The position numbers and the translations under genes were made by a program. From Pectinatus sottacetonis (GTDB lineage: Bacteria; Bacillota; Negativicutes; Selenomonadales; Selenomonadaceae), in contig NZ_WIQK01000001.1 in NCBI RefSeq assembly GCF_015732155.1, forward strand, positions 840,501 through 904,500: a stretch of DNA of 64,000 bases, written 5' to 3'. Positions within the stretch are counted from its first letter, which is position 1; every line of letters begins with the position of its first letter. Shown in pieces: positions 3,494-56,833 of the stretch. Under the pieces are notes generated by a model. The model was given only the letters and a program-made list of their open reading frames with translations. It was not told the origin of the DNA and made no database searches.

Positions 3494-3735
3494 TTATTTT
3501 ATTTTTATTAAATATTTTTCTCTACTGATTTTTTCCTTATAAAAGTTTACAAAAACTTTATTTTGTTTTTTTAAACTTTCATTTTTTTGTAAATTATACA
3601 CACTTATTTTATTTTTATATATACTAATTTGTTGTAATATTTTTTCTTTTGAATCAACATACATACTTAATTGATTTTTAGCTCTACTTATGTCCACATA
3701 GTATTTATTTCGGTTTGGATTGTCAACAGTAAACT
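3494..3735 (-). pseudogene. C-terminal fragment of an SF1 (UvrD/TraI-like) helicase
   Basis: The frame that emerges from the end of the ISL3 element reads FTVDNPNRNKYYVDISRAK and then continues for about 60 lysine-rich residues to a stop. YVDISRAKNQL corresponds to motif VI (YVA-x-SRAK) of superfamily 1 helicases, and the following YVDSKEKILQQI resembles the C-terminal end of conjugative relaxase-helicases. Everything upstream was lost where the ISL3 element starts at 3736. That it came from a relaxase of a conjugative element or plasmid is inference; the helicase motif itself is visible. Confidence 0.55.
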
Positions 3736-5600
3736 GGTTCTTTCCACAGTTAGTTGAAAATGCATTTCTCACGTCGTAGAATTTTCTTGCGCAACATCTC
3801 AAAACTACAACGTCCATACATAATTCGTTTAACAACTTTCAATTTATTGACACTTCCTTCTGCTAAGCCATTATTATAATCATACTGAATTGCATTTTTT
3901 ATTGCATTGATATCTCTGGTTATACCATTAATAAATGAAGAAATTTCTCTGTTTTCTAGAGCAGTTGCATTCTCAATCCATTTATCTAGATTTTCTATAT
4001 GTTTACTTTTCAATACTGTTTTAAAACTATTGACTAGACTAATAATCTTTTTGAACATAGGGTATTTATCGTAAACTTTCTCTAATTGTTTTGATGACAG
4101 ATTCTTAATTTTGGATATAGGTTTATATAAAACTTTGAGCAATAAACTACGATTAAGGATTTCTGTATTTTGAGCTTCTTCAGGACTGTTTTGCTGATTC
4201 TCATATAAAGCTTTTTTAAATTTAGACCGATAATATCGAATAAGTGTACTGGACCCTTTATATCCTTTCTGACGAATTATTTATTCAATCTTATTGCAGG
4301 TATATCCTCGATATAGCAATGCATTAATTTTATCTAAATATGGATCTAAAATACTTTTTCTTTTAGTACCATAAGTGCCACGAGCTGCATCTACATCGTT
4401 TTCTAAATACTTTGCTACGGTATGTCTCGATATATCTAAGTCCTTTGCAATTTTACACATTGAATGTCCCATATTATGTAATTTTATCACTTCATCAATT
4501 AATAAACGTTTATGGGCGGTTTTTTCCTCGTGCTTTATTTGGCGCGAATTTTTAAAATACATTACCCGTTCATACTCAGTCATTTTCCGTAATTTATTCA
4601 ATAACGGAAACTCAAGACTCAATTGTTGACATATTTGATGTTTATTAAGACCATCTTGCAATAATTTATTGGCTTTTTCCATCTTGGCTTCTAGCGTTAA
4701 TAAACAGTTTGGTAGCTGCAACCCTTTTTCTTTAAAAGCGACCTTCTTTACTGAATTTGTTTCAATAATTATTTTTGAGCTAAAATATTTCATTAAGAAA
4801 TCTTTACAATAATCCGTTAAATTTTTTAAAAGATGAAATCTATCGCTTACCTGAACTGCTTCGGGATGGGTTTTGGCAATTGCGTTATTATAGGTAAGCG
4901 ATCCATCTCTGGATACGACCTGAATATTGGGATACTTTTCTAGCCATTCAGTAACATTTTCAAGTTCACGTGAATCAAGTATATCAACGATTTGATGATT
5001 ATCGATATTAATCATAAGTGTTCCATACGATTCGCGTTTTTTAAAAGCGAAATCATCAATACAAATTCTAACGATTTTTTCATTATTGATAACTGGATTC
5101 CCTTTTTTTTAAGAGATTGCAAATTGTACTTTTACCCACATCAGCAATATTGTTTCGTAACAAGTTCATCGCAGTTAATGAACTGACATTTATAGAAATA
5201 TTGATAATTTCGTCTTTTAATCTTTGAGTTTTCTTAGCATTCGCCGGAAGAAAGTCAAATTTTTCAGCAAATGTAGCATAATTGCATTCTGGATTCTCAC
5301 AAAACATCTTTCTATTTTGCAAAATAATTTGGACTTTCTTTCCTTGCATCGGCAAATCCTGAAAACTTCTTTCATAATGTGAGTGAGTTTTTACAGAAAG
5401 TCTTCCACAATAAGGGCAGATGACTTTTTGACGATTCGAAATAACACGTATAAAAATGGTATCGCCTACGATTTCATGACTTACATAATCTAAGTTTTTA
5501 TCCAGTAATTTTATAAATTCATCCATGCTTTAATCTCGTTCCTGTTTTTCTTTTATTTTATCAGAAATGAGCACATTTTCAACTAACTATGGAAAGAACC
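3736..5600 (-). mobile_element. ISL3-family insertion sequence, degenerate
   Basis: The 1865-bp element has terminal inverted repeats. The left end at 3736 begins GGTTCTTTCCACAGTTAG and the right end (reverse complement from 5600) begins GGTTCTTTCCATAGTTAG; they match over about 27 bases with one difference. It holds one transposase gene broken twice. The 8 bases flanking each side (AGTAAACT and CCTTTATT) do not match, so no target duplication survives and the two flanks may not have been contiguous before insertion. Confidence 0.85.
3750..5526 (-). pseudogene. ISL3-family transposase, broken by a frameshift and a nonsense codon
   Basis: The N-terminal part (5083-5526) has the ISL3 zinc-binding pattern CPYCGR...CENPEC. 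The frame is lost at a run of eight A residues (minus strand) near 5103-5110. Coding resumes in another frame (5015 down to 4281) with the DDE domain, including VSRDGSLTYNNAI and a helix-turn-helix near ISRHTVAKYL. An in-frame TAA at 4281-4283 then interrupts it, and the same frame continues through 3750-4142 (ending FEMLRKKILRREK), the usual C-terminus. Two independent lesions mean the transposase is dead unless both are recoded, which is unlikely for the nonsense codon. Confidence 0.88.
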
Positions 5601-5879
5601 CCTTTATTATTGATGTTATTTTACATGACCTTAAAAAAGTTGTCTAGTTAATTGTAACCTATCCAAGACCATCTGTTTCTTTTTCCAAGGCTTTAATATC
5701 TGCAACAATTTCATGGACTGGTTTGGAAGTGAAAGCCATGCAAAAAAATTTATTGAAGGAAAAATTAATAAGTAAAATTTTTTTAAATAAATCTTTATTT
5801 AGCAGGTAATAGAATCAAAAAAAGGAGAATATATAAAGCATTAGCTAAAATAGCCATTAAAGAAGAAAATGATTTTATA

Positions 5880-11296: not shown

Positions 11297-13174
11297 ATCG
11301 AGTAGGAGGTCACTCATTAATTGAATGACCGACCTCTCACACCACCGTACTTACTGTTCAGTATACGGCGGTTCAATAATTTAACGTGAATGAAACATCT
11401 CATATTTCTTGGCTATATTCATATAACCAAGCGACTCAAGATATTTATCTGTTAGTGTTTTGCCTAATATTGGACTGTTTGCGATGCGCCAGTACCCCAG
11501 TCTTGTATTGGCATACTCCCACGCCTTGCCTTTGTACAATCCTAATCGATTCAGATTTTTAAATCTCGCGGAAATTTTCTTCCACTGTTTCCACAGATAC
11601 ATTCTCAATCTACGCCTAATCCACTGGTTTAAATCTTGTATTCTGCTGCGCATATCGCTTATGGAAAAGTAATTAAGCCAGCCTATTGTATAATTTTTTA
11701 ATTCAAGCAAGATGCTTTCTATTGACCGGCCGCGACTGCGGCCGGTTATTTCTTTCACCTTTTGCTTGAATTTCCAGATTACATTTTGGTGTGGCCTGAT
11801 TCCTATTTTCCCTACTACTTTGTGCAGAGAAAATCCTAAAAACTTTTCCCGCAATGGGCTGCCTATTTTACTTTTCTTCCGGTTGACTTTTAGTTTCAGT
11901 TTTCCTTCAAGATAGTTTATACAGCTCTCCATTACACGTTTTGCCGCTCTTGGCGTTTTTACATAGATGTTACAGTCATCGGCGTATCTTACAAATTTAT
12001 GTCCCCTGCTTTCTAGCAGTTTGTCAAATTTTGTAAGATAGATGTTAGACAGTAATGGTGACAGGTTTCCTCCCTGCGGCGTTCCTGCCATTGTCGGGCT
12101 TATTATTCCGCCTTCCATTACTCCGCTCTTTAAATATTTTCGGATGAGTGCTATTGCGCGCTCATCCTGTATTTCTTCTCGGAGCATGTTTATGAGCATG
12201 TCATGATTTACCGTGTCAAAGTACTGTGCAAGGTCAAGGTCCACTATTTTAGTGTATCCTTCTTTATAATAGGCTTCCGCCTGTTTTATGGCCAGGTGCG
12301 CACTCTTTCCCGGTCTGAATCCATAACTGTTGTCTGAGAATGTCTGTTCGAAAATTGGCTGTAGTACCTGCATTATTGCTTGTTGTATTACTCTGTCCAG
12401 TACTGTTGGTATGCCAAGCTTTCTTTTCCCTCCGTCTAGCTTAGGTATTTCTACCCGCCGTACCGGCTGTGGTTTATATTTCCCGTTCTTTAGCGATTCA
12501 AGGAATTCTTCCTTATGTTCTTTTAACCATCCGTACATTTCGTCAACTTTCATGCCATCTACTCCGGCTGCGCCTTTCTTTCGCTTTACCCTGAGATAGG
12601 CTTCATTGAGATTTGCCGGACTTAGGATTATTTCTAACAGGTTCACACGGTTCTTTGTTGCAGTTCCCAGCGATGTCATGCTCTGCGCTCCCTTGCTACT
12701 ATCTGTTTCCAACATACCCTTACAAGGGCAGTCCATTTTATTGGTTTTCTGCTTTCTTTGCATGACTTCTCCTCCCTCTGCCCAAGAACGCTATTATTGT
12801 TCGGTCCTTCCTGGATTTCTTCCAGTACTATGACCTCAGCTGACTTCTCACGATAAATCTTATTTCAACCATGTTTCAATTTTATTTCTGCATGTCCGCG
12901 AGACCTCCCCGGGTAAGAACGCAGTCTTTCTCTCCATCCATCTGCCACATTTACAGGATTGGCCTCGAATAGTTTTGGGCTTTGGTTTGTCTAGCAACCT
13001 TACCCGGTTACTCCTGCCTTATATGTGATTTCTGTTCGTCAGACCAGAGATTTGCCGCTGGCTTCCTTTAGATTCCACCTCGCGATGGACACCCTTGCCT
13101 TAAGCTATGTGCTTGGCACTATTAACCTGCACTCGGGACTTTCACCCGTTAGACTGCGCCCATGCCGGGCACAC
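11297..13174 (-). mobile_element. Class C group II intron
   Basis: On the minus strand the RNA starts GTGTGCCCGGCATGGGCGCA at 13174, the usual bacterial group II 5' end. Domain V is visible after the ORF (GAACCGCCGTAT...GTACGGTGGTGTGAGAGG), then a domain VI hairpin (TCGGTCATTCAATTAATGAGTG), ending CCTACTCGAT at 11297. Comparison with the sister IS66 copy at 9925-9962 defines both exon edges: TTTTTTCTA is followed by the element end there and by the intron here. Insertion just after a terminator hairpin is the hallmark of class C introns. Confidence 0.9.
11381..12763 (-). CDS. ltrA: Group II intron reverse transcriptase/maturase
   Basis: The 460-residue intron-encoded protein has the RT fingers-palm (GAAGVDGMKVDEM, VLDRVIQQAIMQVLQPIFE, NSYGFRPGKSAH), the catalytic YADD in KFVRYADDCNIYV, and the maturase (X) domain around LKNYTIGWLNYFSISDMRSRI with a C-terminal group II motif (KGKAWEYANTRLGYWRIANSPI). 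No HNH endonuclease domain follows, which fits class C introns. Its product splices the intron RNA and reverse-transcribes it at a new site. The frame is intact. GGGAGGAG precedes the ATG. Confidence 0.93.
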   Translation of the reverse strand: MQRKQKTNKMDCPCKGMLETDSSKGAQSMTSLGTATKNRVNLLEIILSPANLNEAYLRVKRKKGAAGVDGMKVDEMYGWLKEHKEEFLESLKNGKYKPQPVRRVEIPKLDGGKRKLGIPTVLDRVIQQAIMQVLQPIFEQTFSDNSYGFRPGKSAHLAIKQAEAYYKEGYTKIVDLDLAQYFDTVNHDMLINMLREEIQDERAIALIRKYLKSGVMEGGIISPTMAGTPQGGNLSPLLSNIYLTKFDKLLESRGHKFVRYADDCNIYVKTPRAAKRVMESCINYLEGKLKLKVNRKKSKIGSPLREKFLGFSLHKVVGKIGIRPHQNVIWKFKQKVKEITGRSRGRSIESILLELKNYTIGWLNYFSISDMRSRIQDLNQWIRRRLRMYLWKQWKKISARFKNLNRLGLYKGKAWEYANTRLGYWRIANSPILGKTLTDKYLESLGYMNIAKKYEMFHSR

Positions 13175-16047: not shown

Positions 16048-16054
16048 TATAAAC

Positions 16055-16098
16055 GACAAGCACCCCGGAGCTGCTGACTGCTCCGGGGTGCTTGTTGT
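16055..16098. terminator. Strong hairpin, terminator of the beta-propeller gene
   Basis: CAAGCACCCCGGAGC pairs with GCTCCGGGGTGCTTG. On the minus strand it lies 23 bases after the gene stop; a clear T tract is lacking on either side, but the stem is very stable. Confidence 0.65.
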
Positions 16099-16120: not shown

Positions 16121-17371
16121 TTATTTGTCTTTTTCTTGCAATTTCTTTGCCAGTTCACGGGCTTCGCGAGCCAGACGTATCTGCGATGCCATAGACTTAG
16201 CAACAGCTGGAGCAGCCACACCGCGGGTAACAACTTTATCCGGTGCAATAAAGCATGCGGAATTGAGGTTGCCGCCTACATAATCGCTCATATCAGTAAT
16301 GCTGAAGGTTCTATCGGCACTGACCGCAGTACTTGGCGTACCGTTATAAACAGCAATCGGTGTCCCTTTAACAAACCAGAGTCTGTAACCATCGGCATAA
16401 ATGCCCCATAAGTAACCATGATCATCGACCGTTATTATCGGTGTCCAAAGCGTCGGGTTCGTAAGATTAGCCAGACTGGTATGATATACTTTGCCAATAA
16501 AATTAGTATAATTACCGCCATAATGTCCGGCAAAAACATATACATTATCGTCATTTACGATTGAAATATCACGGATATCACCATCGGTAAGCGGGTTAGC
16601 AATATTTACCGTAACCACACCATTTTGCGTGAAATTATCCAAGTCAATGATGCAGATATTCGTATCCGCATTACCGGTGCCGACCTGCTGCATGCCGCCA
16701 AGAGAACAAGCGTAGAGTTTATTCTCATAGAGATCAAGCGTGAATGTATTCTTGCCCACGGTCACATAACTTTCAAAATAGAGTTCTCCTGTAGCAGTGT
16801 CTATTTCGAATTTGGCAACAATGCTGTCGTAATAATTGAGGTAGCCCTTGCCTTTATTGACATAGAATAATGCATACAGATAATCGCCAGCTACAGTCAA
16901 CGCCTCACCGTGGTAGACCCCATCACTATATGGATTATTGAAGTTGTTAAAATCTGCTGGAAATGTATATTCAATTTTTTGTTTATATTCATTATCCATG
17001 TCAATTACCGCAATTTTCGACAAATCATAACCTGTACCATAAAACCATTTCCCTTTAGTCGCTACACCATGCAGATTGGCAATAGCCGGCCAGACTAGCG
17101 GCGTTATCAATGAAGTCCAGTTCGCTGCCTGCGGGTCAATAATCTGATTCGGTTCCGAAACAGAAGTATAGTTATACTGGCGCAAAACCAGGCGGCTTTT
17201 AGATCTATCAAAAAAATTAAAGAAAGCAGGATCACCCTTAAGATTGCTTATCTTATTCTTTACCGCGCCCAGCGCACTTGCCAGTGCATTGCGTTCACCC
17301 GTTATCGCTCCAGCAGACCCTTTAGAATAGTTTTTATCTGTTGCGGTAAAAGCTAGTAAATTTTGAACCAT
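16121..17371 (-). CDS. Beta-propeller-like protein of unknown function
   Basis: From the ATG at 17371 (8 bases after GGGAAGG; a GTG at 17380 abuts that site) it has 416 residues. The body is a series of aromatic and Gly-rich beta stretches such as KGKWFYGTGYDLSKIAVIDM, GDYLYALFYVNKGKG, ENKLYACSLGGMQQ, DDNVYVFAGHYGG and DGYRLWFVKGTP, consistent with a YVTN/WD-like propeller. No signal peptide is visible. The tail is basic and helical (RLAREARELAKKLQEKDK). It follows the TonB receptor by about 100 bases with no terminator between, so it probably belongs to the same cobalamin-riboswitch transcript. A role in binding or handling the imported ligand is conceivable but unproven. Confidence 0.55.
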   Translation of the reverse strand: MVQNLLAFTATDKNYSKGSAGAITGERNALASALGAVKNKISNLKGDPAFFNFFDRSKSRLVLRQYNYTSVSEPNQIIDPQAANWTSLITPLVWPAIANLHGVATKGKWFYGTGYDLSKIAVIDMDNEYKQKIEYTFPADFNNFNNPYSDGVYHGEALTVAGDYLYALFYVNKGKGYLNYYDSIVAKFEIDTATGELYFESYVTVGKNTFTLDLYENKLYACSLGGMQQVGTGNADTNICIIDLDNFTQNGVVTVNIANPLTDGDIRDISIVNDDNVYVFAGHYGGNYTNFIGKVYHTSLANLTNPTLWTPIITVDDHGYLWGIYADGYRLWFVKGTPIAVYNGTPSTAVSADRTFSITDMSDYVGGNLNSACFIAPDKVVTRGVAAPAVAKSMASQIRLAREARELAKKLQEKDK

Positions 17372-17474
17372 TTTTAGCACCTTCCCTTAAGTTATTATTA
17401 TTATTTTACCCAAGAATTATTAAACATTCTCTGATTAAGGCATCGGAACCACCCCCTTGAATAGTCTGGTATTT

Positions 17475-20123
17475 TTAGTAATTATATTGTAATGTCAGAT
17501 AATAGCTCCTGCCTGCAATCGGATACTTGATATTCTCTACATCATTGAAATAATACTTATTATACATATCAATTGCTTTGTTAAACATATCGTTAACCCC
17601 CAATGCTACCTGAAAAACTTTATTAAACTTATACTTCACGCCCAAGTCCCAAGTAGTCAAAGAAGATTGATTTTCATATTCTCCCGTTGTAAGAGGTAGT
17701 TCGTTGATGTACATATCGCTTACATAGCGTAACTGCGTGAATAAGCTCCAGTTTCTATCTGGACGGTAAGTAACTCTTGTCGTCCCTTCCCATCTAGGCT
17801 GATATGTCATCACTCCTTTAAACACGCCGTTATTTTGCCAATAGCCAGCTTGCGGCAAAAAACTATCGTTATAAACTAAATCTCTCGGCTGCATATAAGT
17901 TCCCTGCAGGTTTAGATCCCACTTCTGCCACGACATGTCTGCCTGCATTTCAGCACCATTAATCTTGCCGCTGATGGCATTATTATAAACAAAGAAAAAA
18001 TGGTTCCAGGAATCAAGCTCCAGGATACGCTTGGAATCACGTCCGAAATAGGTCAGCTGCAAATGGGCCTGCTTTGCCCCCAGCACCTTGCCATCCCAGA
18101 TAGCGCTTAGATCCCACTGCTTGCCCTCTTCCGGCCGCGGGAACACGCTCTCCGTACCGCCGACATTCGGCATCGGCCAGATACCCGCACCATCACCGGC
18201 AATTTCATACATGTTCAGCAGGCGGAAATAACTGCCGCCGGTCGCCCTTAGCGTGAAGTTCTTATTCATTTGTTTCTTGAGCGCCAGCTGCCATGTCACT
18301 TTATCGTCTGTCTGTTCATCAGTCCGCCTGAGCCACTTAACATTCTGCGGATCATGCTTTTCGTCATACCATTCACTGCGTCCCAGAATTGTCGACCTAT
18401 TATACCTGATGCTTGGCGTCAGCCAAAAGTCCGCTGCCTTATTCAGCGTGACCGTGTCCTGCAATTGAACATTGAATAACTTTTGCTCGTAATAGTTGCG
18501 CCACCTTTTGCGAATATCTGCCGAATGGAAGTCATAATCAAACATGCGCCAGCCATTTATATTCATTTTTTCCTTGGACCCATTAATCAAGAATTCGATC
18601 AAGTTATTATTGCCGGCTTTGTAGCTCCCGTCAATCTGGCCGGTCCATTTATTGCTGCCATATTGACTCCAGAATGTATTAGGTGAATAGGTTTGCACTG
18701 TAACCCCATTTTCTTTTACAAAAGTCTGCCAATCATCAACATAATACTTCTTATTCTGTTTCAGATAGTCAACGCTCCAGCCCCATTCCAAATTACCTAC
18801 GCTATCTCTGCGTCCTACTAACGCTTCCTTATCCGTCAGCTCCTGATTACGGTGATAATACCAATCACGTGGATAGTTATAAGCCCATTCCGTATCTATA
18901 GACCAATATGGTGCGTAATTACCATCAAGAGGAAACGGCAGGTGGCGCTTGATTTGTTTCCAGGTTACTTTGGTCAGCCAGTGATTATCCTGCCATTTCA
19001 CAATTGCATCCGTATTTTTATAATCGTTAGACTTACGCCAATGGTCAGCACTTTTTGTTGCATCAAGTACACCTTTTGCATAATTGTAGTTCTCAATAAA
19101 ACCATCCATGGCTTTATAATAACCACTATTCAAATATCTCTTTTGCCTCCTAGTAAGCTGACTTTGGTCAACCGCATTAATCGCTGCCTGCATCTGTTCA
19201 TTAAACTGCGTATCACCTATCCATAAATTTTGCAATTGTATTGTTTGCTCTTTACTTGCTTCTGTTGATGAAAAATTACTCAACATATCCCTATAATTAC
19301 TATTTAACATGCCCGTTAAATTTTGCGTCTTTAAGATATCATAAACTCTTTTTGCAGATATATTATAAGTACCATCCTTAGGATTAATTACCCCTTCATA
19401 TGTTTCAGCAGCCCATTTTTTGATTTCATCTGTTACAGCGAAATTTCTATATTTGAAATCGCCGTGGCTCTGATCACGGTTTAAGCCTACCAGTACACTG
19501 CCATCGCCCAGCGGGGCATCTATTTCCACATTACCTTTCCAGCCGCCAAAGGAACTTTTGCCTACTGACGCCACAGCTTTGGCTTTAGTAGGTCTTTTCG
19601 TCACGATATTTATTACACCGCCTATGTATGTACCGCCAAACCGTGCCGGTATATAGCCGCGGTATACTTCGATGCGCTCAACGTTGTCTACAGGGATAGT
19701 CGATATATCTGCCGCAGCATCACCGCCCAGATTAAACAGCACTCCATCAACAAATACACCGACCTGGGCTGTAGTAGACCCACGTACGCTGACAGTAGTA
19801 TACTGCCCTTTACCGTTTACTTCGCGGACATGTACGCCCGGCACTTGTTTTAAGAGTTCCGGCAGAGTTTTCTGCTCGCCCATATAATCATCGGGACGGA
19901 TAATGGTAACTGTTCCCGGGGAAAGCTTTGCTTCCCAGTCGGGGCGCTTGGCTTCTACGGTCTGCTTCCCCAGATCATAAGCGGCCTCGTCACCGCTGTC
20001 ATCCTTCTTTACCTTATCCGGTGCCTTATCTGCCCATGCAGTTGATGGTATTATGATGCTTAATGCCATTATACATGCTGCTGCCTCTTTGATATAATTC
20101 CTTTTTCCGGCTCTTCTCTGCAT
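17475..20123 (-). CDS. TonB-dependent outer-membrane receptor under cobalamin riboswitch control
   Basis: The 882-residue protein starts at ATG 20123, after AAAAGGATG. A signal peptide ends near AWA (about residue 32). The TonB plug covers about 70-185: LPELLKQVPGVHVREVNG, VSVRGSTTAQVGVFVDGV, NVERIEVYRGYIPARFGG and GGVINIVTKRP. A 22-strand-type barrel follows and the last residues (YYLTLQYNY) form the C-terminal aromatic beta signal. Between about residues 222 and 362 lies a long, mostly helical insertion (e.g. INAVDQSQLTRRQKRYLNSG), unusual for the family and making it much longer than BtuB. The riboswitch suggests a corrinoid as ligand; that is inference. Confidence 0.88.
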   Translation of the reverse strand: MQRRAGKRNYIKEAAACIMALSIIIPSTAWADKAPDKVKKDDSGDEAAYDLGKQTVEAKRPDWEAKLSPGTVTIIRPDDYMGEQKTLPELLKQVPGVHVREVNGKGQYTTVSVRGSTTAQVGVFVDGVLFNLGGDAAADISTIPVDNVERIEVYRGYIPARFGGTYIGGVINIVTKRPTKAKAVASVGKSSFGGWKGNVEIDAPLGDGSVLVGLNRDQSHGDFKYRNFAVTDEIKKWAAETYEGVINPKDGTYNISAKRVYDILKTQNLTGMLNSNYRDMLSNFSSTEASKEQTIQLQNLWIGDTQFNEQMQAAINAVDQSQLTRRQKRYLNSGYYKAMDGFIENYNYAKGVLDATKSADHWRKSNDYKNTDAIVKWQDNHWLTKVTWKQIKRHLPFPLDGNYAPYWSIDTEWAYNYPRDWYYHRNQELTDKEALVGRRDSVGNLEWGWSVDYLKQNKKYYVDDWQTFVKENGVTVQTYSPNTFWSQYGSNKWTGQIDGSYKAGNNNLIEFLINGSKEKMNINGWRMFDYDFHSADIRKRWRNYYEQKLFNVQLQDTVTLNKAADFWLTPSIRYNRSTILGRSEWYDEKHDPQNVKWLRRTDEQTDDKVTWQLALKKQMNKNFTLRATGGSYFRLLNMYEIAGDGAGIWPMPNVGGTESVFPRPEEGKQWDLSAIWDGKVLGAKQAHLQLTYFGRDSKRILELDSWNHFFFVYNNAISGKINGAEMQADMSWQKWDLNLQGTYMQPRDLVYNDSFLPQAGYWQNNGVFKGVMTYQPRWEGTTRVTYRPDRNWSLFTQLRYVSDMYINELPLTTGEYENQSSLTTWDLGVKYKFNKVFQVALGVNDMFNKAIDMYNKYYFNDVENIKYPIAGRSYYLTLQYNY

Positions 20124-20126
20124 CAA

Positions 20127-20683
20127 TCACTTCATCCTTTTTTATTTATTTTTCTATTGTACCGGCTATCCGTTGTTTATTTCGCCCTGAACCTCCATAA
20201 CTAAAGCCGCTGAATTCCTGTTTCACAGACAGTTGCGCAAAAGGCACGTCTTACATTATCTCCACAGGCTATTCCCGTAATCACTACGGTTCTTATATAT
20301 GTTATTACGCTGTTATGTTTGAAATTATCAGGAATAACGTAAATTATCTGTTTATGAAGTTTTGCCATTTATGCAGCTTTTCATAAACATTACGTTGTTT
20401 TAACCGGCACAATATGAATTTATATACAAAAAATCCCTGCGAAATCATTGCTTACACAGTGATTCTCTGACCGATAGATACATGCCACTCTCTTAGGGCA
20501 GCACAAAATGACCTTCCTTAGGCACTCTCCGTGACAAAGCAGGCTTGCTGTGTCTATCCGTCTTTCGCAGGTTTATGTGGATGATGAAAACAGCTGGTGC
20601 TTTATACTTATACTGAATTTTTTGTAAATTCAGTATAAGTATCTGTTTTCGTTGATTTATATTATTTTGTATGACGGTGTGTA
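20127..20683 (-). other. Long leader between the riboswitch terminator and the TonB receptor
   Basis: About 550 bases without a convincing gene. It contains a perfect inverted repeat (20604-20642) and a weaker imperfect hairpin near 20424-20470 (TGCGAAATCATTGC with the partly complementary CAGTGATTCTCTG). A second promoter or an additional RNA element could be here; nothing definite is recognised. Confidence 0.4.
20604..20642. repeat. Perfect 17-bp inverted repeat in the receptor leader
   Basis: ATACTTATACTGAATTT (20604-20620) is the exact reverse complement of 20626-20642, with a 5-base centre (TTTGT). It lies between the riboswitch terminator and the receptor start. No T tract follows on the minus strand, so an operator or RNA stability hairpin is as likely as a terminator. 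Confidence 0.8.
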
Positions 20684-20717
20684 AATAAAAAGCCTCCATC
20701 CGCGAACAGATGAAGGC
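20684..20717 (-). terminator. Riboswitch-associated terminator
   Basis: On the minus strand GCCTTCATC pairs with GATGGAGGC, followed by TTTTTAT. It comes about 100 bases after the cobalamin aptamer, so ligand binding could decide between termination and read-through. Confidence 0.75.
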
Positions 20718-20814
20718 TGTAACAGCATATTTCGTTTGCGACAGAAAATACTGCCGCTGCGAAATCTCCTCCCTATCGCTCGTAGGTACAAGCATCACAA
20801 ATAATGCTAACGGT

Positions 20815-20975
20815 GATCGTTAAACAGGCAGTTCTTCTGGCTCGGATTCATTGCTTGCCGCACCTTCTCAGGATAAATCCCAATGGTGTTTTGCGTTTTG
20901 CTCATCCTCACAGCGGCGGGACCGCTCCGGCTTTATACCGGATTTTCTATTAAGTCCTTACGGACACCTATTTCA
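20815..20975 (-). promoter_or_regulatory. Cobalamin (B12) riboswitch
   Basis: On the minus strand the conserved core is plain: AGGTGTCC, then AATAGAAAATCCGG, GCCGGAGCGGTCCCGCCGCT followed by GTGA, and the B12 box GAGCCAGAAGAACTGCCTG. Order and spacing match the AdoCbl-type class. It would reduce expression of the downstream receptor when cobalamin is plentiful. Confidence 0.93.
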
Positions 20976-21448
20976 TTCATATGAAATTATCATAATCTAT
21001 GTAATTATAACCATATATAATTACACGAACTATGAATTAATATTGAATAGTATTAATTTATTTCTTTATCTGTAGTATACCATTGCATAATACAAAATGC
21101 AATAACAATTATTAGTTTATTAAAAAATTTTAATTTATTTTTTATTATTGTCCTTTAAACTAGTGAATTTTCTTCTCTTAGATTCATTATACAGATTATA
21201 AATTGAAGTTTTATTAATAATTTATTTATATTTTATCATTGGAATAATTAATTAATATTGTATATATTTGCTTCTCATTTTATGAATAAAAGTACCGAAA
21301 CAAATAAATACTTTTGGGAAGCGACACTAAGGGCGGACAGAAAATCATGCCTGTTTCTTGTATATATTTAAAACTTCGCCAATATATTAAAAATTTAATT
21401 TAATGATGAATTATTGGGTATACATTATCTATTATTATAATATCGTTT
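20976..21448. other. Gene-free spacer with a partial IS66-derived repeat
   Basis: AT-rich, with no supportable gene. Bases about 21327-21375 carry a partial copy of the block AGGGCGGACAGAAAATCATG...AAAACTTCGCC, which is also found in both CRISPR-flanking repeats. Confidence 0.5.
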
Positions 21449-22014: not shown

Positions 22015-25000
22015 ATTTTCGTCCCCTTACGGGGCTTATGTTTTTTAATTAGGTGCAGATTTTCTAAAGTCTTATGATGTAAACAAAGTTTTCGTCCCCT
22101 TACGGGGCTTATGTTTTTTAATATCCTAAAAAAATGCGCACTATCAGCACGTTAATTGAGTTTTCGTCCCCTTACGGGGCTTATGTTTTTTAATTATGTA
22201 AGCCAAATATTATAAGAGGTGATAGCATGAAGGTTTTCGTCCCCTTACGGGGCTTATGTTTTTTAATAAGAAAACTTATAAACCTTAAGAACCGCTTAGA
22301 AGGACACGTTTTCGTCCCCTTACGGGGCTTATGTTTTTTAATTTCAGCATTACTTCGTACAATAACATTATACTGCTTAAAGTAGTTTTCGTCCCCTTAC
22401 GGGGCTTATGTTTTTTAATATTCTTAAGTTTGCATTAGTTATATCTTTTTCCGCGTTTTCGTCCCCTTACGGGGCTTATGTTTTTTAATTGCCTATTCTG
22501 TTACCAATCTTAAAAGTGATAGGGGAAATGTCACCGTTTTCGTCCCCTTACGGGGCTTATGTTTTTTAATTGACTAGTCTAATTAAAGCAAGTTATTGCT
22601 TTAAAGGCTTGTTTTCGTCCCCTTACGGGGCTTATGTTTTTTAATTGCAAAAGAGAATGTAGGTATGACTATATTGTTGTTGTGAAGTTTTCGTCCCCTT
22701 ACGGGGCTTATGTTTTTTAATTTACAGGATTAACACCATTATTGGCTAGTTTAATAAAAACGTTTTCGTCCCCTTACGGGGCTTATGTTTTTTAATTAAA
22801 GAGTAAGAAAAAAACGTAAGCCGCTTGATTGCGCAGTAGTTTTCGTCCCCTTACGGGGCTTATGTTTTTTAATACAAGTGTGATCAATACGAATACTGTA
22901 GAGAACAATTAAAGTTTTCGTCCCCTTACGGGGCTTATGTTTTTTAATGGTGTACCTGCATGCATATCATTTGCATTGTATAATTTCCAAAGTTTTCGTC
23001 CCCTTACGGGGCTTATGTTTTTTAATGAATAAAAAAGAAATTGAAACATTTAAAGATATTATAGAAGTTTTCGTCCCCTTACGGGGCTTATGTTTTTTAA
23101 TTTTCATTACTTTACTCATCATTTCTATTTTTTTCATTTTAATCGTTTTCGTCCCCTTACGGGGCTTATGTTTTTTAATTTCAAAATTTAAATGTACAAA
23201 TGAACAAAAATATTATCATGTTTTCGTCCCCTTACGGGGCTTATGTTTTTTAATAAAAACAATTCCGTTGTCATAAATAAAAGATTTGTCATTAAGTTTT
23301 CGTCCCCTTACGGGGCTTATGTTTTTTAATTAACATATAGTACTGATCTATTGTTATACTTAACAAATACTGTTTTCGTCCCCTTACGGGGCTTATGTTT
23401 TTTAATAAAACAATATTAAAAACATAATGGATAGACTATACAGATCAAGTTTTCGTCCCCTTACGGGGCTTATGTTTTTTAATATAATTGTTTTGTAACT
23501 TCTGAAGATAACTTTTATCAAACAGTTTTCGTCCCCTTACGGGGCTTATGTTTTTTAATAAAGGGAGCCATTGGTTCGATAGAGATACTATGAAATTCTG
23601 GTTTTCGTCCCCTTACGGGGCTTATGTTTTTTAATATGAAAAAAATAAGTATTGCTGAATTTAAAAGAAATGTGTTTTCGTCCCCTTACGGGGCTTATGT
23701 TTTTTAATAAGCTTAATATTTCTTCTCTTATATCCATTTGTAAAACCGTTTTCGTCCCCTTACGGGGCTTATGTTTTTTAATAAACATTGTTTTATATTC
23801 TAAACGGGGATCATAGAAAGCAATGTTTTCGTCCCCTTACGGGGCTTATGTTTTTTAATAATTTATTTTATAAAAGGTATTGCACTATTATAATATATGT
23901 GGTTTTCGTCCCCTTACGGGGCTTATGTTTTTTAATTTCTTCTGCTCAAAACAAGGTATATTCACACAAAGTCATAGAGTTTTCGTCCCCTTACGGGGCT
24001 TATGTTTTTTAATTTAAAGCTGTTATAAATAATAGAAAAACAAATAAAGAATGTGTTTTCGTCCCCTTACGGGGCTTATGTTTTTTAATCTGTGAAAAAT
24101 GGTTATAAATTAGTATCAGATAATGATATCGTAGTTTTCGTCCCCTTACGGGGCTTATGTTTTTTAATAAATATTGCAGGTAAATCGGTGCAATATATAG
24201 GAGTTATTGTTTTCGTCCCCTTACGGGGCTTATGTTTTTTAATTTGTGATATTGTTTGTATCTATACAAGATATAAAGGTATTAAGTTTTCGTCCCCTTA
24301 CGGGGCTTATGTTTTTTAATTGCTATAGAAGGGATTCATGTTATATTTGATTATTCAGAACAGTTTTCGTCCCCTTACGGGGCTTATGTTTTTTAATTTG
24401 ATAGTAATAATAAGTTTAATATTTAATTTTAAAAAAGTTTTCGTCCCCTTACGGGGCTTATGTTTTTTAATAATTTTGTTTATCAATTAAGTCGTTTATA
24501 TGAAGGTAAATAGTTTTCGTCCCCTTACGGGGCTTATGTTTTTTAATGATATTGAAGAATTTAACAGTATTGGTATAATAAATCATAGTTTTCGTCCCCT
24601 TACGGGGCTTATGTTTTTTAATAATTATTAAAGGTAAAACAATTGAAGGTATTCATATTATAGTTTTCGTCCCCTTACGGGGCTTATGTTTTTTAATCTG
24701 CTTTTGTTTCGTGATACACTATATCAAAAAACTTGTTTTCGTCCCCTTACGGGGCTTATGTTTTTTAATAAGCTGATTACACCGCAATTATCGTAAAAGG
24801 AGGGATAAAAGTTTTCGTCCCCTTACGGGGCTTATGTTTTTTAATAATGTAGTAAAAATAGGCGAAAACATTGTAAGTGTGAAGGTTTTCGTCCCCTTAC
24901 GGGGCTTATGTTTTTTAATTCAGTGCTTTCAAAACACTGTGATGGAAATTGGCAGTTTTCGTCCCCTTACGGGGCTTATGTTTTTTAATTATGCTAATAA

Positions 25001-25062
25001 TTTTTATATTACTAGCATTTTCAATAAGTTTTCGTCCCCTTACGGGGCTTATGTTTTTTAAT
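22015..25062 (-). CRISPR. CRISPR array, 41 repeats and 40 spacers, type III-A
   Basis: The repeat is 35 bases. On the plus strand it starts GTTTTCGTCCCCTTACGGGG and ends CTTATGTTTTTTAAT; on the minus strand it ends CCCCGTAAGGGGACGAAAAC, the shape of other type III repeats, so crRNAs would carry the 5' tag ACGAAAAC. Counting repeat starts gives 41, with spacers of 35-46 bases (mean about 40). Repeats are identical by eye except the one at 22015, whose first base is A instead of G, which marks the leader-distal end. Transcription is therefore most likely on the minus strand, from the cas2 side. Confidence 0.95.
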
Positions 25063-25266
25063 CCTGTCTGCTGTGAACTCTATTGCTATTGAGCTTATTC
25101 AACAATTTGCGGCGCAGATTAGTTTTTTGATGACTTTGACTAATATTTTTTCGCATAATAACACTCTAAGTCCCACCATTATAGCAACGGCGCGAATTCA
25201 CTTTCTTATTTATAATACTTTTTTACTATAGCATATTACTGTTAAAATGTATAGTACCAGAAGGAT
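25063..25266 (-). promoter_or_regulatory. Probable CRISPR leader
   Basis: About 200 AT-rich bases between cas2 and the first repeat, without a gene. They lie at the conserved end of the array and on the cas1-cas2 side, where new spacers are added. A definite promoter was not assigned. Confidence 0.6.
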
Positions 25267-25587
25267 TCAGAAAATAATAACGTCTTCTACATGAGTATGG
25301 CCTTTTCCCCATGAACGCACTGAAGTATGATCTGCTAATAAGTAAATACGCAACGAATCCTCCTGTGTATTTACTATGCGGCTAGCTTTATTTACCAGCT
25401 TTTCATAACGTTTTTTATCGAGATAAGCCTCGAACGCTGACTTTTGCACCCGTGTACCAAATCCTTCTAAACATTTAACCATTTTATTACGGCATTTATT
25501 ATCAACAATGTCATAGATAATAAGAACTATGTATCTTTTATCATCAACAGCCACAAATTCATTTTCATCAGTAAAAACATCACTCAT
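25267..25587 (-). CDS. cas2: CRISPR integrase subunit Cas2
   Basis: The 106-residue protein has the ferredoxin-like Cas2 start YIVLIIYDIVDNKCRNKM, whose Asp after Tyr is the conserved metal residue, then LEGFGTRVQKSAFEAYL, and ends EDVIIF. Cas2 dimers bridge two Cas1 dimers in spacer integration. A 20-residue N-terminal extension precedes the core. AAAGAGG is placed before the ATG. It is the last cas gene before the leader. Confidence 0.95.
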   Translation of the reverse strand: MSDVFTDENEFVAVDDKRYIVLIIYDIVDNKCRNKMVKCLEGFGTRVQKSAFEAYLDKKRYEKLVNKASRIVNTQEDSLRIYLLADHTSVRSWGKGHTHVEDVIIF

Positions 25588-25636
25588 AATATAATACCTC
25601 TTTGTTCAATAATTCTTATTTACATAACTATATATT

Positions 25637-26632
25637 TTAACGAATGAATATTGGTAAATATGCACCTGTATCAAGAGTTGTCAATGCCTGTGAAAATAAA
25701 TTAACATGTTTATTTAAGGCATAACGGTAAGATTTTTTACTTTCTTCATATTTATTAACAGTACGCATCTTTTTTTCATAAGCACGTAAAAATATACTGC
25801 GCCCGTCTCTTGTCAAATATACACCTCCATTAGTTTCAGATTTTTGAAAATGTTCTAGTTTTATCTCATTATGCTGTATTAGTGCCAATACCATCGAATC
25901 AACAATAACAGCACGCCATTCTTCCAATAAATCAGAAGCCAACGCCGGATGGTGGTTTTTTAATGCATGCATAAATCCAAAATATGGGTGCAGACCATTA
26001 TTTTCAATAGCTGTATATAATTCATACATGACCAGTGTATAGCCAAAACTGAGCATAGAATTAACAGCATCACGCGGCGGCTGCTTACTGCGTTTTTTAA
26101 ATGTAAATGGATCTGATACTATTTTACCTAAGGCCTCAAAATATAAGCGGGCAATAATCCCTTCATATCCCATAATCTGTTCTTTACTAGTTGCACTATT
26201 TATATTTTTTCTTGTTGCCAAAATGTTGCTTATTATTGTACTTATTTCATTTGATTGTTTATGGCGGTTATAGCGACGCAGTATCACAATTTGGTTATGT
26301 ACTTTTGCCGCTATTATTTTTTTGCTTAGTTCTATAGCAAACGGGGTATCCTGCACCAGCATCTGCTGTTTGTGCTTTGTCACATTTACATGCTGTGTAG
26401 ATTCTAATCGTCCAAAAAATTTCCCCATTGACGATATCCAAGTAACAGGAATCCCTTGCTGTAATAGCGCAACCATTGCCTGTGAAGATACCTGCACACT
26501 TTCTATTAGTACCAAGCCTTCCAGTATTTCTGCCGGTATTTCCATGATAGTTTCCAGATTACGTCCCACAATAAATTTATCGCCTTTTTTTTGAATCCTA
26601 GCACCTTCTTCAGTAATATAGGCAAAGCTCAT
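25637..26632 (-). CDS. cas1: CRISPR integrase Cas1
   Basis: 331 residues from ATG 26632; a GTG at 26641 overlaps the GGGGTGGG ribosome site. Conserved features are EGLVLIESVQVSSQAM, the catalytic Glu in GYEGIIARLYFEAL, NSMLSFGYTLVMYELYTAIE, GLHPYFGFMHALKNHHPALASDL with the catalytic His, and the acidic ASDLLEEWRAVIVDS. Full length and apparently functional. It follows csm6 by 24 bases in the cas operon. Confidence 0.96.
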   Translation of the reverse strand: MSFAYITEEGARIQKKGDKFIVGRNLETIMEIPAEILEGLVLIESVQVSSQAMVALLQQGIPVTWISSMGKFFGRLESTQHVNVTKHKQQMLVQDTPFAIELSKKIIAAKVHNQIVILRRYNRHKQSNEISTIISNILATRKNINSATSKEQIMGYEGIIARLYFEALGKIVSDPFTFKKRSKQPPRDAVNSMLSFGYTLVMYELYTAIENNGLHPYFGFMHALKNHHPALASDLLEEWRAVIVDSMVLALIQHNEIKLEHFQKSETNGGVYLTRDGRSIFLRAYEKKMRTVNKYEESKKSYRYALNKHVNLFSQALTTLDTGAYLPIFIR

Positions 26633-26656
26633 TATTCCCACCCCAAAGTATTTTCA

Positions 26657-56594: not shown

Positions 56595-56642
56595 ATCTGT
56601 AAAAGCAGTATATATATTGTTTTTATATTGACAATTGATTAG

Positions 56643-56753
56643 CAGTCTTTGGGGCAGGGTGTAAATCCCTACCGGCGGTATAGCCCGCGAGCCTTTTGGC
56701 AGATTCGGTTTAATTCCGAAGCCGACAGTTATAGTCTGGATGGAAAAAGATTG
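56643..56753 (+). promoter_or_regulatory. FMN riboswitch (RFN element)
   Basis: The conserved segments occur in order: GGGGCAGGGTGTAAATCCCT, ACCGGCGGTATAGCCCGCGA, GCAGATTCGGTTTAATTCCG, AAGCCGACAGTTATAGTCTGG and the closing TGGAAAAAGA. FMN binding would close expression of the rib genes. Confidence 0.97.
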
Positions 56754-56833
56754 TGTTATTTTATAATACTTTTAATAAGATTATCACAAAACTCGTTCCG
56801 TGCGATTTAAGTCGTTTTTGTTTTGCCCTATTG

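Follow-up and report, generated by a model that had tools for sequence, protein, structure and literature searches.

The window, a 64,000-nucleotide (nt) stretch of contig NZ_WIQK01000001.1 of Pectinatus sottacetonis (Negativicutes), contains a minus-strand operon between positions 20986 and 16121 that encodes a BtuB-like TonB-dependent receptor and, 103 nt behind it, a BtuG-like beta-propeller protein. The two genes are preceded by a cobalamin riboswitch, a terminator-like hairpin and a long leader (Table 1). A preliminary description of this DNA had named all five elements, and all were present; the interval given there ended at 20975, which trims 11 nt of the aptamer. The propeller likely begins at the ATG at 17371 rather than at the GTG at 17380 that was chosen by the open reading frame (ORF) finder. 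The folding of 20640-20990 was better than that of 100 of 100 shuffled sequences (z -3.78), and its minimum free energy fold also contains the terminator-like hairpin. Because 4.4 terminator-like sites would be expected in the region by chance and a hairpin scan gave 6, the argument for a terminator rests on the position of the hairpin and on the length of its 12-pair stem. No further Rfam element was found in the leader, where the lowest E was 0.17 and all matches were far below the gathering scores.

Table 1. Features of the receptor-propeller operon, in positions of the window.
Feature	Position	Strand	Details
Terminator-like hairpin 3′ of the operon	16053-16098		19 pairs; flagged by the scan on the plus strand only
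BtuG-like beta-propeller	16121-17371	minus	416 residues; no Sec signal or lipobox seen
C-terminal helical tail of the propeller	16124-16198	minus	residues 392-416, of which 392-411 are conserved; common to free-standing propellers
BtuB-like TonB-dependent receptor with signal sequence	17475-20126	minus	883 residues from TTG 20126, 882 from ATG 20123
Variable loop insert of the receptor	19029-19442	minus	138 residues (229-366), flanked by the GDFKYRN and NDYKN motifs
Plug domain of the receptor (PF07715)	19614-19922	minus	residues 69-171, E 4e-18
Leader, terminator to receptor start	20127-20690	minus	about 565 nt
Terminator-like hairpin of the expression platform	20718-20691	minus	12-pair stem, 4-base loop, T-rich tail; TTTTATTTAC
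Cobalamin riboswitch aptamer (RF00174)	20986-20810	minus	104.1 bits (gathering score, 31.5), E 5.7e-25, whole model matched (1-189)

The preliminary description saw no known link between the propeller and B12. This was wrong: both the sequence searches and the fold ranking put BtuG, which binds B12, first among solved proteins, and the genetic context is in line with them. The protein has no family of its own in Pfam or NCBIfam, and its best Pfam match was a kelch model at E 0.045, below the cut-off. When its sequence was searched against the PDB, significance was confined to 8ptf, 8ptd and 8blw (E 4e-6 to 1.1e-5), the following entry standing at 0.56; in a profile search, BtuG was the sole entry listed at 0.01 (E 2e-5). 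By their titles 8ptf is BtuG2 and 8ptd is BtuG1, and 8blw is described in PMC10404256 as BtuB1-BtuG1 of Bacteroides thetaiotaomicron. A model based on the sequences of the window's propeller and of seven relatives reached a mean predicted local distance difference test score (pLDDT) of 86.5 and a predicted template modeling score of 0.88. With this model, ranks 1-7 in Foldseek (best E 9.3e-10) and ranks 1-11 in VIA-align were all BtuG, the latter with Z 24.4-25.9 and root-mean-square deviations of 3.0-3.4 over 301-315 aligned residues. A seven-bladed propeller is thus indicated by the fold ranking against BtuG rather than by a direct count of the blades. Neither a lipobox cysteine nor a lipoprotein export signal was found in the window's propeller, and the signals of its signal-bearing relatives, judged by eye, end in an AxA-type motif without a following cysteine. 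Because this lipoprotein signature is missing, we call the protein BtuG-like and not BtuG in the strict sense.

The nearest NCBIfam model to the receptor was the BtuB model TIGR01779 (E 8.6e-29), and its nearest solved protein was Escherichia coli BtuB (E 1.1e-17 across residues 68-212). Seven relatives are 45-54% identical to the window's receptor, and one of them, the aligned relative L111, matched the barrel domain PF00593 at E 5.4e-23, as did other relatives (here and below, L, G and C numbers are our handles for loci, genomes and contigs). Beyond residue 212 the receptor could not be aligned to BtuB by phmmer. The loop insert follows soon after the last alignable part, which by strand order points to extracellular loop 2 (EL2), and the insert probably sits there. 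According to PMC10404256, EL2 of BtuB2 touches the linker of BtuG2; by analogy, the insert may plausibly act as a hinge for the propeller or as its docking site. The preliminary description had drawn attention to a large helical insertion in this receptor. The insert itself is real, and helical in a receptor model with a mean pLDDT of only 40.6, but it is a variable loop and no hallmark: across 37 propeller-paired receptors, with those shorter than 700 residues excluded, it ranged from 11 to 233 residues and varied in sequence as well. We also rejected it as a mark of free-standing propellers because its lengths overlap between architectures.

A search with the single propeller sequence found carriers in 32 of 300 genomes, and a profile of 17 propellers gave 73 matches in 47 of 380 Negativicutes genomes, representing 24 of 102 genera. 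Carriers include Megamonas sp. UBA1799, Anaerospora hongkongensis, Pelosinus fermentans JBW45, Sporomusa ovata and Sporomusa acidovorans, the last with a propeller (L114) that is broken across two frames and was kept as pieces. Sporomusa lies taxonomically within Negativicutes and is known for unusual cobamides. Within a first set of 42 propellers, 38 were encoded no more than 1 kb from a BtuB-like receptor gene of the same orientation, and four had no such neighbor (L080, L086, L093 and L094). The second set comprised 17 free-standing, whole propellers chosen from the 73 profile matches outside the first set, leaving out three autotransporter-type and several fragmentary matches. Every one of these adjoined a BtuB-like receptor, which brings the pairing to 55 of 59 for both sets together. 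Propellers shorter than 300 residues (two L079 fragments) were removed from these counts as well as from the tail alignment, signal and tree counts described below.

A sense-strand cobalamin riboswitch was present within 1.5 kb upstream of 45 of the 48 testable receptor-propeller operons, which come from many genera (by batch: 3/3 in the window's genome, then 7/7, 6/7, 17/18, 7/7 and 5/6). The operons lacking one were L085, L099, with a weak antisense match only, and L183, with a riboswitch at 2.2 kb; the match of L115 was weak (35.4 bits against 31.5). Operons whose upstream sequence ends early were excluded from the tally (L069/L108, L101, L102, L106, L173, L181 and the second operon of L172). 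None of the four propellers without a receptor neighbor had a riboswitch. Given this tally and the pairing, the association with corrinoids belongs to the family and not to one locus. Homologs under iron or heme control, which the preliminary description held to be decisive against a B12 role, were not encountered, but no search was aimed at iron regulation.

Receptors and propellers occurred in four arrangements, three of which (A, B and C) are found in the window's genome. Type A, as in the window, consists of a receptor and a free-standing propeller. Type B pairs the receptor with a giant protein that has an N-terminal signal peptide and propeller and a C-terminal autotransporter barrel; the protein of the window's genome (L029) has 3,093 residues and matches PF03797 at E 2.1e-42. 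The barrel was visible in 10 of the 16 type B frames, and the other 6 run off the sequence end. The signal peptide, called by eye, and the barrel place the site of action outside the cytoplasm, at least in type B. In type C, a free propeller accompanies a receptor fused behind an autotransporter barrel, giving two outer-membrane barrels per chain. The example in the window's genome (L030) carries PF03797, Plug and TonB_dep_Rec within 1,456 residues; all three domains were also found by Pfam in five of five further fusions tested, and the remaining fusions of the second set were judged by length. Type D (L070-L073 and L084) resembles A or C, except that the propeller carries a Sec signal and the cluster includes a secretin gene.

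In a tree of 57 propellers, the 16 type B proteins fell on one side of a branch with a Shimodaira-Hasegawa-like approximate likelihood ratio test (SH-aLRT) value of 99. Thirty-six propellers were signal-less, and the 5 signal-bearing free propellers were placed among these in two places. The trees were quick searches with SH-aLRT support only, and L080 and L086 were left out of them. A secretin was encoded in the cluster of 5 of 5 signal-bearing free propellers and in none of the other first neighborhoods (43 in total); the 16 later neighborhoods had neither a secretin nor a signal-bearing propeller (L075 belongs to both sets). The secretin of L070 is an 85-residue piece at a contig end. Upstream of its secretin, L084 has a cobalamin riboswitch at 12572-12755; by coordinate conversion, so does L110 (4090-4271), which is the same locus as L071. 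Because the signal-bearing propellers occupy two places in the tree, the secretin link represents at most a few events. Against the link, secretins of the same subfamily were found elsewhere in 9 neighborhoods without a cobalamin riboswitch or a propeller match. The joint occurrence of secretin and signal-bearing propeller is a correlation. In 7 of these 9 further secretin neighborhoods (L160-L166), a solo secretin was followed by a signal-bearing, unannotated protein of about 270-290 residues, and similar proteins adjoin the secretin of L071-L073 (L071 7175-9062; L073 3911-6436).

For the window's propeller, only 5 in-frame codons precede the ATG and 2 precede the GTG. Its Met-1 aligns with the mature start of four signal-bearing relatives. 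The signal peptides were called by eye, and hydrophobicity scores separated the groups poorly. Autotransporter and signal-bearing forms scored 1.82-2.92 and the window's propeller scored 1.40, but L082, L086, L096, L177 and L180, all called signal-less, reached 1.8-2.4. The second copy of L075 scored 2.19, and the 2.39 of L169 comes from upstream sequence that is absent from L100, its near-copy. The status of L080 is uncertain, with a score of 2.05 and a propeller match that starts at residue 107. A signal-less propeller was the sole match found in G018, G024, G056 and G260, and thus need not be a degenerate side copy; G024 is the complete chromosome of Pelosinus fermentans JBW45, and G024 and G056 each hold one unscored candidate.

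The C-terminal tail was compared in 25 of the 26 free-standing forms of the first set, with L080, which lacks the tail, and the second set omitted. The mean top-residue frequency was 0.54 for residues 392-411, compared with 0.45-0.53 for the propeller parts and 0.34 for the preceding linker. The tail stands out in type A, is less strict in type C and occurs in free-standing forms with and without a signal alike. From this conservation we infer that the tail may serve export or docking. Type I secretion was considered as an export route and found no support: across the window's genome, the two models searched, for HlyD- and PrtD-type proteins and covering only part of the known exporters, stayed below their cut-offs (TIGR01843, best 58.7 against 208.65 bits; TIGR01842, 256.6 against 510.15 bits).

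The genome of P. sottacetonis (2.69 Mb) contains 13 cobalamin riboswitches, that of the window among them. Behind them stand genes for TonB, ExbB, ExbD, CbiK, CbiL, an ATP-binding cassette (ABC) importer, methylmalonyl-CoA mutase and further TonB-dependent receptors. We read the ABC importer as BtuFCD-type. Because these genes sit behind cobalamin riboswitches, the path from the outer membrane to the cytoplasm is likely under corrinoid control. Two cobalamin riboswitches, G000:C1:1093687-1093873 (L034) and C1:1236564-1236741 (L035), both on the plus strand, have no obvious gene behind them. The former faces the 3′ side of an acetolactate-synthase-like gene, named by eye, on the opposite strand, and an antisense role is possible. 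In 12 of the 12 cobalamin aptamers read in orientation (L001-L012), an element of roughly ACCTRCGAGCGATRGGRAGGAGATT, with variations, was seen by eye 3′ of the aptamer; it is not covered by the Rfam model and could represent the kissing-loop portion of the switch.

Overall, we consider it highly probable that this locus encodes a BtuB/BtuG-like, corrinoid-responsive outer-membrane capture pair. When intracellular adenosylcobalamin is low, transcription would pass the terminator, as the riboswitch class and the hairpin predict, and receptor and propeller would be made. The receptor, in which a signal sequence and a plug are seen, would be exported by Sec to the outer membrane. Judging by homology, fold and linkage, the propeller would bind corrinoids and hand them to the receptor as a lid. 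The receptor would then import them with TonB-ExbB-ExbD, and a putative BtuFCD-type ABC transporter would complete the uptake. In this class the propeller does not come as a lipoprotein; it is signal-less, carries a Sec signal beside a secretin, or forms part of an autotransporter.

Several results weigh against this assignment. The propeller is only 12-14% identical to BtuG, with a sequence match that spans about 84 residues, and its fold is a common one: the lactonase PpgL reached Z 24.1, equal to the lowest-scoring BtuG entry, so that fold alone would not decide identity. The receptor scored 100.5 bits against an equivalog cut-off of 599.7 for TIGR01779, its barrel gave no match to PF00593 at E ≤1, and its structural model was too poor for use. 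In NCBIfam, the ABC importer matched heme and hydroxamate transporters best and BtuF and BtuC less well, all below the cut-off. The lactonase score and the importer names, together with the presence of XusB in the fold lists (Foldseek rank 28; Z 21.3), would fit a surface protein that handles another ligand (a siderophore or heme, as in XusB, or the substrate of a lactonase-like enzyme) and has only the riboswitch in common with B12 uptake. We regard this explanation as very unlikely, since BtuG leads by sequence and fold, the cobalamin riboswitch recurs at nearly all testable operons across many genera, and CbiK, CbiL and methylmalonyl-CoA mutase in the regulon point to corrinoids. The least likely explanation is that the helical loop insert, and not the propeller, is the main device for corrinoid binding or docking. 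The insert is large in the window and in most type A relatives, but it is variable in length and sequence, is nearly absent from several paired receptors and is also large in some autotransporter-type pairs (L068 second receptor, L099 and L102).

A further objection to a surface lid is that the window's propeller has no export signal and no signal-like stretch. The receptor might therefore import corrinoids alone, and the signal-less propeller might be a cytoplasmic corrinoid buffer, chaperone or delivery protein, with only the signal-peptide and autotransporter relatives at the surface. Consistent with this, the window leaves no room for a Sec signal, the signal-less form makes up the majority in the tree and is the sole match found in four genomes, no HlyD- or PrtD-type exporter exceeded its cut-off in the genome, and CbiZ, which acts on corrinoids, is encoded in the related cluster L095. 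However, propellers of all forms mostly adjoin an outer-membrane receptor. The mature start of four signal-bearing relatives coincides with the signal-less Met-1, both forms are intermixed on the tree, and the C-terminal tail is shared by free-standing forms with and without a signal and is clearest in type A. We judge a cytoplasmic role to be unlikely and retain the capture pair as the preferred reading. As to how the propeller would reach the surface, we offer a tentative and rather doubtful proposal: corrinoid capture in Negativicutes may dispense with lipid anchors, the window-type propeller being exported by an undescribed route independent of Sec with its tail as export or docking signal, while some relatives gained a Sec signal and recruited a secretin and others lost the tail upon fusion to an autotransporter.

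Other genes recur around signal-less propellers. Their clusters often contain a papain-like or subtilisin-like protease, apparently without a signal peptide. The papain-like assignment (PF00112) was tested in L095 (15751-17821), and proteases of this kind mark clusters L069, L075, L076, L096 and L100; the subtilisin-like assignment (PF00082) was tested in L077, with protease clusters L074, L077, L078 and L083. The CbiZ gene noted above also belongs to the propeller cluster of L095. A small, exported-looking protein of about 180 residues with a DWEIS motif was seen in L068 (11391-11936), L069, L070, L073, L077, L078 and L079; the L068 copy matched no Pfam family, and the protein was not seen beside the window's propeller. 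L096 encodes an SbmA/BacA-type ABC transporter (3716-5641, minus strand; PF05992, E 2.7e-28) with cobalamin riboswitches nearby, and ABC proteins like it cluster in ten neighborhoods. A 374-residue protein lies near seven signal-less propellers; it was dropped as a marker, because a 72% identical copy occurs in the window's genome without a propeller in the listed part of its neighborhood. Elsewhere in the window, probable clustered regularly interspaced short palindromic repeats (apparent from a recurring peptide within a spurious ORF) were seen by eye at 22947-26641 near cas1- and cas2-like genes. A group II intron with a reverse transcriptase ORF, the ORF being named by eye, lies at 11297-13089 on the minus strand, and a flavin mononucleotide riboswitch (118.7 bits) lies at 56641-56755 on the plus strand.

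In Bacteroides, BtuG is a seven-bladed, B12-binding propeller that forms a lid over BtuB and whose linker runs along EL2 (PMC6143338 and PMC10404256). A BlastP survey that covered 313 gut genomes led to the report that it is exclusive to Bacteroidetes, and it was described as a surface lipoprotein with a lipobox and an export signal, the latter likewise called Bacteroidetes-exclusive (both PMC6143338). A BtuG-like protein of Negativicutes was not described anywhere in the literature covered, which left out preprints and most subscription journals. The preliminary description had proposed a corrinoid capture system not yet described in diderm Firmicutes, and this proposal is supported by the riboswitch control, by the pairing and by the silence of the literature. 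Our results suggest that the B12-capture lid is not a speciality of Bacteroides. If so, lid-type vitamin capture would be older or more mobile than thought, with carriers in 24 of 102 Negativicutes genera. Several means of displaying the lid would also exist, among them the fusion of an autotransporter barrel to a TonB-dependent receptor in one chain. Moreover, the signal-less propellers would provide, in organisms such as Sporomusa, a testable case of proteins that lack a signal although their apparent place is extracellular.

Like the BtuB-BtuG systems of Bacteroides (BtuG1-3; 8blw, 8bmx, 8okv and 8ptf), the window's locus combines a BtuB-type receptor with an adjacent propeller and a cobalamin riboswitch. 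Unlike them, it shows neither lipobox nor lipoprotein signal, its propeller has only the low identity to BtuG given above, and its host belongs to Negativicutes. Whereas BtuG is lipid-anchored, the propellers of Negativicutes are signal-less, carry a Sec signal beside a secretin or are borne by autotransporters. The receptor differs from E. coli BtuB in its long, variable loop insert and its propeller partner. XusB, a xenosiderophore-binding propeller lipoprotein of Bacteroides fragilis, shares the propeller fold; it ranks below BtuG and has no sequence match to the window's propeller at E 10. Type Va autotransporters are characterized by PF03797, a domain that is carried by the type B and C paralogs of the same genome and is lacking at the window's locus. 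In Myxococcus xanthus, the signal-less protease PopC needs the TonB-dependent transporter Oar for its secretion (PMC6434023). Oar-PopC resembles the window's pair in joining a signal-less protein to a TonB-dependent transporter, and this analogy concerns a possible export route only. The best reading is that the BtuB/BtuG-like pair is a known kind of system, new in its Negativicutes host and in a propeller that lacks the lipoprotein signature.

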